The translations under genes and the position numbers were made by a program. A stretch of 16,349 nucleotides of DNA, taken from positions 1 to 16,349 of the forward strand of contig CAMWHH010000003.1 in assembly GCA_947174035.1 (NCBI GenBank). Reading direction: 5' to 3'. Shown here piece after piece: positions 2-11,539 of this stretch. Positions within the stretch are counted from its first letter, which is position 1; each line of letters begins with the position of its first letter. Origin of the DNA: an uncultured Mycoplasma sp. GTDB taxonomy: Bacteria > Bacillota_I > Bacilli_A > Mycoplasmatales > Mycoplasmoidaceae. The notes beneath the pieces are model-generated. The model saw only the letters and a list, made by a program, of their open reading frames with translations, had not been told where the DNA came from and ran no database searches.

Positions 2-181
2 CCAAGACCTGGTGTAACTCCTATGGCTTCAAGACCAACAGTTGCTCAACCAAGAGTTGTAGTTAATACAACAACTCCAAGACCAGTAGTGACTCAACCA
101 AGACCTGGTGTAACTCCTATGGCTTCAAGACCAACAGTTGCTCAACCAAGACCTGGTGTAACTCCTATGGCTTCAAGACCA
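2..181 (+). repeat. 48-bp in-frame tandem repeat (about 3.75 units)
   Basis: Units start at 2, 50, 98 and 146. Units 1 and 3 appear identical, unit 4 matches for its first 36 bases, and unit 2 has the same length but a diverged sequence (coding PRVVVNTTTPRPVVTQ). Since 48 is a multiple of three, gain or loss of a unit changes protein length without a frameshift. The array probably continues upstream of the window. Confidence 0.9.
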
Positions 182-304
182 ATGAGCAACACACCTGGAA
201 GAACTGTTATTAGAACAGCTGATGGAAGATTAATTTCAGTTAACACTAATAGTGGTGTTGCTGCTAGACCTGGAGCTGTTCCTCCAAGACCAGTTGTTAG
301 ATAA
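2..304 (+). CDS. Proline-rich tandem-repeat protein, C-terminal part (5' end outside window)
   Basis: The reading frame is open from the window edge, so the true start lies upstream; the ATG at 23 lies inside a repeat and is unlikely to be the start. The visible 100 residues are rich in Pro, Arg, Thr and Val and built from 16-residue units of the type PRPGVTPMASRPTVAQ, the second being strongly diverged. A non-repeated tail rich in Arg and Pro follows and ends in VVR. No membrane segment or catalytic motif is visible. Basic proline-rich repeat tails occur in cytadherence and terminal-organelle proteins of mycoplasmas such as P30, so a cytoskeletal or attachment role is conceivable, but that is only a resemblance in composition. 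A perfect terminator hairpin follows the stop. Function is unknown without the missing N-terminal part. Confidence 0.8.
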   Translation, partial: PRPGVTPMASRPTVAQPRVVVNTTTPRPVVTQPRPGVTPMASRPTVAQPRPGVTPMASRPMSNTPGRTVIRTADGRLISVNTNSGVAARPGAVPPRPVVR

Positions 305-586: not shown

Positions 587-2260
587 TTAAATAAAAAGAT
601 TTGGTTTTTCATAATCTTTTTTCATACTTATTTTATTTTTTTCAGTAATTTTTATATTTGATAGAAGCGAGTAAACAACACTTAAAAGCATTGGAATCAC
701 AATAAGCACTATTCATCCAAATGTCAATATACTAACATTAGTATAATAAGAAATTAATGACATTGCTATTAATAAAATAATGGATATTATAATTTCTCAA
801 ATATTAAATAATATTGCTTGTCAAAAAGTAATAGAATTATTTGATTTATTTTTTGGTGTTATGAAAAATTTGAATTTTGTTTTTAAAAATGCACTAACTA
901 CTGCAACAGTTGTAGACACAAGTAAGGATGAATAAATGAAATAATAAAAAAGAATTATTAATATCAACTTAAAAAAATTAATTTTTCCTAAGTAAAAGAA
1001 AAAACAATTAGTAAGAGGTGCTATTGCAAAAAATACTGTAACAGCTATATATCAATCTAAATAAGTGAATGAAAATCCTAATGGACATAAAATACTAAGG
1101 TTAAAAATAATAAGACAAGATGAAAGAATGATTATTATAAAAGATGTTTGGGATAAATAAATATCTAGTTTTCTAAAAAAAGGAACTTTTTTAGCAAATA
1201 ATGATTTAAATCCTAAGTATTTAAAAACCTCAGCCCCCCCCTGTGATCATCTAAATTGTCTTTTTTTAAAAGAAATATATTCACTTGGGAATTCTTCATA
1301 ACAAGTTATATTATCTGCATACACTACTGAAAATTTGTTTCGCAAAGCTTTATATGTTAAACCTCAATCCTCTAATAGTATTTCTGGAAAACCATTAGAT
1401 TCTTCATAACACTCTTTTTTTATGATTGCTCCATGTCCACAAAGATTTAAAACGCCAAGTCTATCTCTTGTGTTGTACTCTGCTTGTCATTGAAAATTAT
1501 GAATGTATGATCCAATGTAGTCAAATAGGTTTTTTTGTCTTGTACATAAGTTTTTTGCTTGCACTATTCCAATTTGATCATCTTCTAAAAAGTATAATAA
1601 AGATTTTCCAATAAAATCACTTGGAATTATTTCATCAGCATCTAAAACAACAAAATAATCATAGTTTTTATCTTGTTTCAAAAAATGATTTATATTTCCA
1701 GCTTTAAAACCTTTTGTACTATCTCTTCTTATTATTTGCACATTTTTATATTTTTTTGCGAAATCATCAACTCTTTTTTTGTAGGCATCAGTTTTTGAAT
1801 CATCAAGTATAAAAAATTTACAATTTTTATACTTTTGCTTCATACTTTCTAGTAAACTGTTTTCATCAAAATCATCACAAGTACAATAAAGTACATAAAC
1901 CATATAATTTGCTTTATTAATATTTGATTTTTGATATTTTTTATTTCATTCATTTTTTTCTTTTGAAAGTTGTTTTTTAATATAAAAATTGTAATATAGA
2001 CCATAAATAAATTGTTTTGTTGAATCACAATATAAAAGAGAGTTGAAAATGAAATTAAAACAAACAAAAACTTTTACAACTGTTGGTTCTAAAGTGTTTT
2101 CTGTATTTTCTCATTGAAGCACAATTGAAGTTCAATAACAAAAAGCAATTATTCCAACTCATAAAAATAAAATTAGACTTCAAATAAAATAGTATCTAGA
2201 CTTTTCTTTTTTAGAACTAAAGTGATTTGCATATAACTTTTTATTTGAATTCTGGTTCAT
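587..2260 (-). CDS. Membrane glycosyltransferase family 2 (cellulose/glucan synthase-like)
   Basis: Code-4 translation gives 557 residues from an ATG preceded by AGGAA. Two hydrophobic segments lie near the N-terminus (about 25-45 and 62-80). A cytosolic GT2 domain follows from about 120, with the nucleotide-sugar residues DD at 153-154, KGFKAGN at 183-189, the DAD metal-binding motif at 207-209, a TED-like LED at 296-298 and an RQFRW motif at 334-338. About five membrane segments then run to near residue 535. This is the architecture of processive synthases that polymerise a sugar nucleotide and export the chain, such as BcsA and PgaC. Known mycoplasma relatives make surface beta-glucan or galactan. 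The sugar used here cannot be told from sequence. The canonical QxxRW has Arg in place of the first Gln. A G8 run directly follows the motif (see findings). The promoter is not clear. The gene runs opposite to rpsB and stands alone. Confidence 0.88.
1234..1241 (-). repeat. Homopolymeric G8 tract inside the glycosyltransferase gene
   Basis: On the coding (minus) strand eight G in a row span codons 340-343 (Gln-Gly-Gly-Ala). I see no comparable G or C run elsewhere in this A+T-rich window. Reading with seven G gives a TAG at codon 349, and with nine G a TAA at codon 347, so either slip removes the C-terminal membrane domain. As given, the tract is in the full-length (ON) state. Confidence 0.9.
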
Positions 2261-2341
2261 ATTTCCTACTTTATAACATATTTTACTAAACATATAATAG
2301 GATTTTAAAAAAATATTTTATGTAGCATTAAACAAAACTTA

Positions 2342-2414: not shown

Positions 2415-3509
2415 ATGCCTAAAAAAGCAGAGGCTAAAACTGAATCATCTAAAAAAACTGATAAAGTAAAAAAAGAAACAGTTGAAAAAGATGTAAAAGC
2501 AGACAATAAAGAAACTAAAAAAACTGCTGATAAAGAAGTTTCTAAAACAGTAACTAAAAAAACTGCAAATTCAGTAGATAAAAAAACTAATGATTCAGGT
2601 TCAAAATTTGAATCTAACACTTATAAAGAAAAAGTAGCTGAAATAGAAAACAGCATCTTGCAAAAAATAAAAGAAAACCCAACAATTACAGGCAAACCAT
2701 TTAGAAAACTGGTTAGTGTAAATAAATTAATGGAAACTGGTGCTCATATTGGATTAACAAGCAGAAAATGAAATCCAAAAATGAAAAAATATATTTATAC
2801 TAAAAAAGGATCAAACCACATTATTGACTTATTACATACTGTAATTTCTTTAAATGTTGCTTATAACTATTTGTTAGATTTAGTTAAAGCGAATTCTAAT
2901 TTAGAAAATTCACCAATTTTAATTGTAGGTACAAGAGGAAAAACAATTAAAAATCATGTAAAAGATCAAGCTAAAAGAGTTCACGCTTATTATATAAATG
3001 AAAGATGACTAGGTGGAACTTTAACAAATTTTTCTACAATTACAAAATCTGTAGCTAAATTTAATAATTTAATTTTGATCCACAAAAATGGTGAAATAAA
3101 TAAATACACTAAAAAAGAACAAGTTGAGTTAAAAAAGAAAACTGAAAAATATGCAAAATATTTTTCAGGAATCAGAACAATGAAAGATCTTCCAAAAGCA
3201 ATTATTTTAACTGATCCTGAAACTAACAAAATTGCTATTAGAGAAGCTAAAAAACTTGGCATTAAAGTTATTGCTATATGTAATACAAATGCAAATCCAG
3301 ATTTGGTTGACTTTGTTATTCCAGCAAATAATTATTCTATTAAATCAGTTTATTTATTAATTGGATTATTCTGTGATGCTATTGCTGAAGCAAAAGGATT
3401 ACCAAAAATGTTTGCTGAAAAGAAAGATGAAGAAATTATTCTTCCTGAAGTTATTAAAAGAAAACCAGATAATAGAAGATTTAATAACTATTCTTCACAA
3501 AAACAATAG
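2415..3509 (+). CDS. rpsB: 30S ribosomal protein S2 with long N-terminal extension
   Basis: The 364-residue product carries the S2 core from about residue 98: SVNKLMETGAHIG, then RKWNPKMKKYIYTKKG, the NERWLGGTLTNF block, and CNTNANPDLVDFVIPANN near the end. S2 binds the 30S subunit head/platform region with S1 contacts and is needed for initiation. Usual S2 length is about 240-260 residues. The extra length here is mainly a Lys/Glu/Thr-rich, low-complexity segment of about 96 residues before the core. The start is supported by AAGGAGA four bases upstream and a promoter just before it; no other start fits as well. Trp codons at 119 and 202 are TGA. A strong terminator follows. In most bacteria tsf comes next, but here coaD does. 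Confidence 0.96.
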
Positions 3510-5274: not shown

Positions 5275-7011
5275 ATGAATTCAAAAAAAAGAATTTTAAT
5301 AACTTCAAGTGTTGGTGCAGCAGCTGTTATTGCTGGTGTTTCTCCAGCGATTGCATCTACTACTAACACTCAATCATCTACTGTTAATGTTCCAACAGAT
5401 CCAGTTGTTGATCCAAGTGTTGATCCAGTTAACCCTGGTGATCAAACAGATCCAAATCAACCTGGTGATCAAACAGACCCAGTTAACCCTGGTGATCAAA
5501 CAGATCCAAATCAACCTGGTGAACCAGTTGAACCAGTAGAACCAGTTGAACCAACTTATGCAACTGCTCCAAGCGAAGATAACTTTACACTTCAATTCAC
5601 ATTATATACAATGAATGATAAAGGCTTGAATGACTATTTTAAAAACAGAATTTCAAGTTCTCAATATGAAGGATTTGTAGAAAGAAATTTCGCAAATGCA
5701 GATCAATATAGTAATGTAAATATTACTTATGTTCCAGATTCAGCAAGTTTTGCTACTAATAGTTTCCAAGTTTATGCAACTCCAATTGAAGGTGCAGTTT
5801 GAGAAAATACTAAAGATGATAGTAATCAAAGAACTATAACTGTAAAAATTGATAATGCTGCAAAAACTCCAGATGCTACAGTTCCAGCAAAATCAAAAAA
5901 TAGTAGTTTTAATATCAAAATTTCAGATCAAAGTATTAAAACAGATGCTGATTTAAATAACTGAATGAAAAATTATTTCAATACAAGTTTCAATTTAAAT
6001 CACTTTACACCTGAAACTCCAGATTATGTATTTAAAAATGTTAAATTAACATATGTTGAAAATTCTGCAAGTATTGCAAATAAATCATTTAAAGTTAAAG
6101 CTACACCATTAGATGGTCATGCATGATCTAATACTGACTTCTATAAAAATACAGTTACTGATGCTTTTGATATGGATATTTGATTCTTGAATTTAATTCC
6201 AGCAAATAAAATTATCAGTCTTCCAGAAAGATGATCAAACAGTATAATTATTAACTCAATTTATAGACAGTTTAATACTACTGAATACTTAGATTGAGGT
6301 ATGCTTGGTTTCTTCTTTGATCCAACTTATTTAAGTTATGATACTTGATTAATTCCAGAATATAAAAAGAAATTTGATGATCAAAAAGACCAAAACGAAT
6401 GATATTTCTATAGAGAAGGTATTAAAGAACTTGCAAAATACTATCCAGTTGAACAAGCTTACTGAGATGCAATTAGATATGATAAAGTTGAACGTGTTAG
6501 TGGTGGTATTGCATTAGACTATTCAATCTTATGTTACCCTAAACAAGGTTACTATTGAGAAGATGGTACTAATGGAAGCAAATGAGTTCAAATGAGATTT
6601 TTTGTATCAGGTGAATGAGATGTTGGAAAATCTTGAGTTCTTGGTAAAACATATGATTTAATGGAACTAAAATCCTACAACATCGAAAACGAAAAAACTC
6701 CATTACCTACAAGATCTTGAGTAACAAATAAATTACTATCAGTTAAAAATGACATAGTAATAAAAGGTACTTTTGAAGAAAACAAAAAGATTGTTGAAAA
6801 AATTATTATGGATGACTTGGAAAAAAACTTCCCAGATTATTACATTCAAATTACTGACCTTCAATCAGCTTCTCCAAATGAACCACAAGATGTTAAAGGT
6901 AACTGAAAATATAAAATTAGATTTATATTAAAAACAGATAAATTTGCTATTAGTGACTTTATTGATGGATATATATTCTCAGATGGATGACCAATCTATA
7001 CTAAATACTAA
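5275..7011 (+). CDS. Secreted repeat-domain surface protein (non-lipoprotein signal peptide)
   Basis: I do not recognise a named family. The 578-residue product starts with a basic end and a hydrophobic stretch, with a likely signal-peptidase site after AIA near residue 27. There is no lipobox Cys, so it is secreted or surface-bound without a lipid anchor. Residues 50-93 form a Pro/Asp/Gln-rich linker of 9-residue units. Two clearly related domains follow at about 104-193 and 211-302, sharing a pattern of V-x-TYV-x-x-SAS-x-A-x-x-SF and ATP-x-x-G-x-x-W. A degenerate third copy lies near 400-445, with PKQGYYWEDGTNG. This strand-rich pattern recalls the lipoprotein-associated domain of mycoplasma surface proteins, but that link is tentative. 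The C-terminal half is aromatic-rich, with most Trp coded by TGA. It has its own strong ribosome binding site, promoters and terminator, so it is an independent unit among housekeeping genes. Confidence 0.88.
5422..5529 (+). repeat. 27-bp repeat in a 54-bp alternating array (4 units)
   Basis: Four 27-base units code DPVNPGDQT, DPNQPGDQT, DPVNPGDQT and DPNQPGEPV, so two types alternate as a 54-base higher-order unit. A short EPV triplet repeat follows to about 5556. All units are in frame, so copy-number change would alter only linker length. Confidence 0.9.
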
Positions 7012-10378: not shown

Positions 10379-11539
10379 ATGAAAACAGCTAGAATACAAT
10401 TAAAAACAATTAAACACCAACATAAACTTATTAATGATATTGATAACAATAAAAAAAAGAATTTCAAAAACAGAACAGTAATTTCTGTTTTTGTGGTTAT
10501 TTATTATCTATTAATTCTTGGTTTAACAATTTTAGCTGACCAAACTAAATCCGAATGAACTTCATTTGATATAAAAATAAGTGGAATATTTGCCATTCTT
10601 TTAGTAGTGGTGATATATATACCATTTATATTTGCGGTTTTAGAAGCAACACGATTGGTTTTTAGATCATATGAAAAAATACCAATAATCATTTTAATGA
10701 TTGTTGCAACCATTGCTTATATTATTCCTGCTTTAACATTAATATTTACAAATTATTTTATTAATCATTTTTATGTGCAAAGTGATGAACCTGCTATAAA
10801 TTCACAAGAAACTGCTAATTTTTTTCTTTATTCTAAACTAACATATACAACAATTATTAGTAGTCTTGTTAGTTGAATGATTTTAATTATTGTATTAAAT
10901 ATAGTTTTAAAAGCATTTTATAAAGCTAATTTTAAAAATGTGATTACTTTAAATGCTTTACTAATGATTATTGTTTTTGGATTTGATGGTTTTATTTTTG
11001 TATCTATTTTTAAAGGATGAACTGCTTTACTTTTTTTACTAATTTCTGTTTTAGCAACTGATGCTTTATGTTATATTTGGGGGCTTCTTTTTGGAAAACA
11101 TAAAATGGCTAAAATTATAAGTCCAAATAAAACATGAGAAGGTGCAATTTTAGGATCAGTTTCATCAGTTGCATTATTAATGATTTATTGTGGATTATTA
11201 ACAATAGATAATCATGTTGTTTCTTCAAGTGAAAATCGATGATTAGTTAACTTGCAAAATATAGCAAGTTTTTCAACCGTTTATGACTACAGTCTTTGAA
11301 TTCTGATTTTGTTTATAGCAATTATCTTGGTGATATTTGCCATTTTAGGTGATTTACTTTTCAGTTATGTTAAAAGATCTTTTGCTATTAAAGATTTTAG
11401 TAATTATTTAAAAAGTCATGGTGGTTTTTTAGATAGAGTTGATTCTTTGCTGGTTGCATCCTTAATCTTTTTTATTTATTCTTTAATTGCAATTTCAGTT
11501 TATAGTTTTGTTAATTTTCCAACAAATATTCCAATGTAA
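10379..11539 (+). CDS. cdsA: Phosphatidate cytidylyltransferase (CDP-diacylglycerol synthase)
   Basis: This membrane enzyme makes CDP-diacylglycerol from phosphatidic acid and CTP, the branch point to phosphatidylglycerol and cardiolipin. The 386-residue product has a basic soluble N-terminus of about 35 residues and some eight membrane helices. The full CdsA signature lies at 329-355: SYVKRSFAIKD followed by HGGFLDRVD. ATDALCYIWGLLFGKHK and SPNKTWEGAILGS are further conserved cytidylyltransferase blocks. TGA is Trp in the TWEGA motif, while the CYIWG Trp is TGG. No Shine-Dalgarno is visible. The length is above that of many family members (about 270-300), mainly through the N-terminal tail and the loops between early helices. 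Confidence 0.95.

Follow-up and report, generated by a model that had tools for sequence, protein, structure and literature searches.

In Mycoplasma agalactiae, ON/OFF switching of gsmA, the gene for a beta-(1->6)-glucan synthase, is governed by poly(G) length, according to a passage of PMC12103780 that cites Gaurivaud 2016. Beta-(1->6)-glucan colonies of M. iowae phase-vary, and the sections of PMC11658790 devoted to them suggest that the variation originates in a 5' poly(TA) whose repeat number varies, and that EGZ31427.1 of M. (Malacoplasma) iowae 695 makes the polymer. Where the same paper treats M. bovigenitalium, it names a galactan synthase candidate with ten G at its start (WP_051043965.1) as a proposed polysaccharide switch. 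Homopolymer tracts of at least 8 bases are described as abundant in Gardnerella, with one shown to vary, in part of PMC11287997.

We analysed a window of 16,349 nucleotides from an uncultured Mycoplasma species (the source species, which belongs to Malacoplasma), which carries a GT2 synthase gene on its reverse strand (Table 1). A sequence-only reading of this DNA had placed eight consecutive G on the coding strand of that gene, directly after its RQFRW motif, and had compared the gene with that of the phase-variable GsmA of M. agalactiae. The run is there, as C8 on the forward strand, in frame and in the context TCA CAG GGG GGG GCT GAG (S Q G G A E), and the comparison with GsmA is sound: both proteins are GT2 membrane synthases (35% identity over 478 residues), and GsmA of strain 14628 likewise has an in-gene poly-G, a G9 at L113:5517-5525, in which a change of length shifts the frame. 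The site differs, since the GsmA tract codes NGGGN and falls, in the alignment, near residues 251-255 of the source synthase, about 97 residues upstream of G8, which rules out a shared position. Switching of GsmA is stated as shown in the passage of PMC12103780, whereas that of the source synthase is a candidate drawn from sequence. The M. iowae protein P0009, from the same genus as the source synthase and 52% identical to it over 425 residues, may correspond to EGZ31427.1, the gene for which has its repeat, (TA)n, at the 5' end, in contrast to the internal G run here. As described in that part of PMC11658790, WP_051043965.1 of M. bovigenitalium differs both in being a galactan candidate and in having its tract at the gene start.

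Table 1 Features of the synthase gene, in window coordinates.
Feature	Position	Strand	Remark
GT2 processive polysaccharide (probable glucan) synthase ORF	587..2293	-	code 4; 568 aa from first ATG
DxD motif, D218-A-D220	1634..1642	-	retained in truncated product
RQFRW	1247..1261	-	position of QxxRW motif in GT2 synthases
G8 tract, codons 351-354 (CAG GGG GGG GCT), candidate slipped-strand switch	1234..1241	-	in frame (ON) in assembly
TAA met on gain of one G	1223-1221	-	seven codons past Gln
TAG met on loss of one G	1215-1213	-	nine codons past Gln
C-terminal hydrophobic block, residues 376-549	647..1168	-	Kyte-Doolittle scan; gone in either frameshift
FFITPK, FxVTxK-type UDP-sugar motif	851..868	-	gone in either frameshift

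The synthase frame is open only when TGA is read as Trp. Its translation contains DDS164, KAGN197, DAD218, ED308 and FFITPK476, motifs from the list of GT2 synthase motifs in a section of PMC11658790, which bears out the class originally assigned; the role of the FxVTxK motif as a UDP-sugar motif comes from section 2.3 of that paper. The protein matched Pfam PF13641 (1.3e-21), matched the MdoH, PgaC and CelA models weakly and under their cut-offs, and had cellulose synthase as its best match among solved structures. Judged by hydropathy alone, segments at residues 33-60 and 71-89 and several within 376-549 lie on either side of the catalytic domain. We take the gene product to be a membrane-embedded GT2 glucan synthase with UDP-glucose as its most likely substrate; the polymer would be a capsule-like glucan, and the source species presumably produces a capsule. 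Met12 (position 2260) is the likelier start, giving 557 aa, because the 99% identical protein P0002 begins at the second Met as well and GTAGGAAAT stands just ahead of this codon. The glutamine of the tract, given earlier as Gln340, bears that number if counted from the second Met, but is Gln351 from the first ATG.

Translation would end after residue 359 in a G7 form and after residue 357 in a G9 form, at the two stop codons that had been predicted, and G6 and G10 likewise run into early stops. About 210 of the 568 residues are missing after a one-base slip, in agreement with the loss first estimated, and the C-terminal membrane block goes with them, as had also been predicted: both FFITPK and the hydrophobic block are absent from the G6, G7, G9 and G10 frames. 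Given the lost motifs and helices, the truncated forms are presumably inactive. With eight bases, the tract is as long as the homopolymer cut-off of 8 used in PMC11287997. Two of the 19 Gly codons in the synthase are GGG, and both lie inside the tract.

We take ON/OFF switching by a recently gained slipped-strand tract in a probable glucan synthase to be the best reading of these data, and on balance a probable one. G8 would then be a young contingency tract in the GT2 glucan synthase gene, which slippage of DNA polymerase would turn into G7 or G9. The slipped frame would cut the synthase just past RQFRW, removing the membrane channel together with the FxVTxK motif, and a clonal population would become a mix of glycan-positive and glycan-negative cells. 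Slippage would presumably occur often enough to matter, and the switching may be under selection.

The main rival to switching is chance codon drift, in which rarely used synonymous codons for the conserved residues Q-G-G-A happened to form G8, a run that perhaps slips at a low rate and is a hazard or neutral, not a maintained switch; we consider this rather doubtful, though deserving of serious weight. The tract is odd for the synthase gene but not for the whole genome. Shuffles of the window led us to expect 0.03 G7 matches, against two overlapping ones observed, and the claim that long G/C runs are otherwise scarce was confirmed, no other run in the window exceeding 5 (longest at 11079 and 13047). 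Seven places in the whole assembly carry G/C runs of at least 6, of which three are 8 long, one is 7 and three are 6. A codon-usage model, built from synonymous codon draws over 16 contigs (204 kb, 145 ORFs), gave mean counts of 367, 67, 14 and 1.3 for runs of at least 3, 4, 5 and 6 G, respectively, compared with 402, 69, 11 and 0 observed in the 204-kb sample, and thus matches the observed runs of 3 to 5. Per genome, with 88% coding assumed, the model predicts 5.1 coding-strand G runs of at least 6 and 0.31 of at least 8; the coding strands of the assembly contain three and one, the one being the synthase G8. With 0.31 such runs expected per genome from a model that fits the shorter ones, an origin by chance keeps part of the probability. 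Against it, G8 arose in the synthase gene itself in only 12 of 20,000 codon draws, and simple repeats explain, or are proposed for, phase variation in this class of synthase. Over the wider synthase family, we compared genes with their flanks at the best 80 of 274 homologous loci and counted 3 G/C runs of at least 8 in 137 kb of gene versus 6 in 655 kb of flank; this enrichment is not significant (binomial P 0.19).

Related genomes place the tract in time. In the sister species (G005, 91% DNA identity), the same SQGGAE is coded TCT CAA GGT GGA GCT GAA, and the outgroups G003 and G002 have CAA GGT, then ACA. Because CAA GGT is found in the sister species and two outgroups, the additional G's are derived on the source lineage, and the tract is young and was gained there. 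Changes to G are clustered, 4 of the 13 synonymous ones in the synthase falling within codons 351-355 (0.0002 of placements in a post hoc test), which argues against chance; synonymous differences as such were not significantly crowded at codons 350-355 (shuffle P 0.24), which argues for it. Also in keeping with chance, the tract was not found in any relative examined. Among 28 homologous loci including the window, all 27 others, which come from 17 genomes and in many cases from distant relatives, lacked a G/C run of at least 6 inside the matched stretch, and three of the 27 had a G6 outside it in the rest of the fetched sequence; a conserved G8 switch of the synthase is thereby ruled out. No truncated near-identical form occurred among the best 120 of 404 homologues listed, a listing that may miss near-identical forms inside one cluster, and a query with the C-terminal half had no match among 940 candidates, although fragments in another frame may escape annotation as proteins; both negatives carry little weight. 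We saw no tract-length variant in the data compared and found no published description of the synthase G8 tract in literature searches.

Slippage could also act at expression, with RNA polymerase or the ribosome slipping on the G run to give a fixed truncated fraction and a lower synthase dose while the DNA stays unchanged. Sequence reasoning allows that a G run permits an mRNA frame slip, but the site is not conserved among relatives, and we regard this explanation as very unlikely. Still less credible is a wrong tract length through an error of sequencing or assembly, for which the fragmented source assembly (a metagenome bin of 139 contigs, 79.7% complete) would give occasion, but against which G8 keeps the 568-residue frame open and P0002, another record, known as protein alone, is full length with SQGGAE.

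Other synthase genes of the genus Malacoplasma carry repeats of different kinds. The M. iowae-like genome G008 (locus L009) has (AT)9 in the 5' codons of its synthase; in that assembly, the first 80 codons of the synthase open frame lack an ATG. G006 has (AT)16 and (AT)10 lying 90 and 129 bases ahead of the synthase open frame (L010, about 3241-3311), and G001, taken as M. penetrans, has T15 and A10 lying 54 and 68 bases ahead of it (L008, about 3187-3215). By the patterns used, there was no repeat in the synthase orthologues of G005 and G003, only (AT)5 and three copies of a 4-base unit in that of G002, and no simple repeat besides G8 in the window synthase and its 200-base upstream region. 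Beyond these genomes, an (AT)7 occurs at codon 38 in M. felifaucium and no repeat in M. bovis 8790, and a Clostridia relative contains G9. A Gardnerella relative has C11 just ahead of its ATG (L067:4866-4876), beside a stretch of N. With the window excluded, 5 repeats occur in three of six Malacoplasma genes (11.0 kb including 150 bases upstream) versus 9 distinct ones across control stretches of the same genomes totalling about 267 kb, a count made post hoc and with 204 kb of the controls taken from the source genome and mostly coding. GsmA-type synthases may gain repeat switches repeatedly and independently, with the site and kind of repeat turning over between species and switchability kept; examples would be G8 here, (AT)9 in the M. 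iowae-like genome, (AT)10/(AT)16 in G006, T15/A10 in G001, G9 in M. agalactiae and C11 in the Gardnerella relative. We hold this view tentatively, and the repeat count in the Malacoplasma genes moved us slightly closer to it.

The sugar supply was compared across 10 genomes of the genus, of which 7 have the synthase and 6 have galU. All six other genomes with the synthase also have galU, and none of the three without it does (one of the three is 78% complete); in the source assembly, which is 79.7% complete, galU was not found. The galU gene adjoins the synthase in G006 and G008, directly following it in the latter, and does not do so in the window. UDP-galactopyranose mutase scored above its cut-off in G004 alone, a genome without the synthase. 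We infer that the synthase uses UDP-glucose to make a glucan.

The source genome's two other 8-base G/C runs are common to congeners, with lengths that differ between species, which counts in favour of switching. One lies a few codons past the ATG of a GlcNAc-type PTS EIIC-B-A gene and is C8 in the source genome (G000, L002:2272-2279, contig C58), C8 in G005 (L154/L207) and C9 in G003 (L059/L208); the gene is open in the source genome, and in G003 the ATG is out of frame with the rest. Relatives in G001 and G008 were unmatched by the motif used. From its sequence, the gene looks like a phase-variable sugar transporter, and it is near a putative glucosamine-6-phosphate deaminase gene (by reading alone). 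The second run lies upstream of a small ORF and is C8, C9, C8 and C10 in four of the nine genus genomes having the ORF (L003:1402-1409 on contig C87, L061, L192 and L143); the other five loci, one of them a partial match, are without such a run. This ORF has no Pfam or NCBIfam match and follows a PAPS-reductase-domain gene in the source genome. All tract differences at these two loci are between species.

Further runs were noted in congeners. A large protein starting MKSKK.WKWIGF has G8 at about residue 366 in three congeners, conserved in place and length (L160:1501, L153:1501 and L190:1793), and secreted proteins that look similar by eye have G9 in G006 (L056:1501-1509) and G8 in G002 (L191:1735). 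In G006 the protein is split between two frames and lies about 3 kb from the synthase gene of that genome. Within 7 kb, G001 (L151, L187) has three genes that resemble one another and carry G8, G9 and G8 where they code for the N-terminal hydrophobic region (LLLIGGGVVVGS). In the window itself, positions 2-304 (+) encode the end of a proline-rich protein, which contains 3.8 copies of a 48-base tandem repeat and is truncated by the contig end, and a similar repeat protein adjoins the synthase in G005 and G003. Positions 5275-7011 (+), between the genes for L-lactate dehydrogenase and EF-Ts, encode a protein of 578 residues that looks secreted, carries DPV/QPGDQT repeats and matches nothing in Pfam or NCBIfam.

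Repeat-driven switching is known already in related mycoplasma synthases; the G8 tract would add a further case, with the tract at another place in the gene. Should it switch, the sugar coat of an uncultured mycoplasma would be toggled by the M. agalactiae route, via a recent tract at a new site. With an identical peptide encoded in the sister species but no tract there, the two species together would illustrate the birth of a contingency tract by synonymous change.
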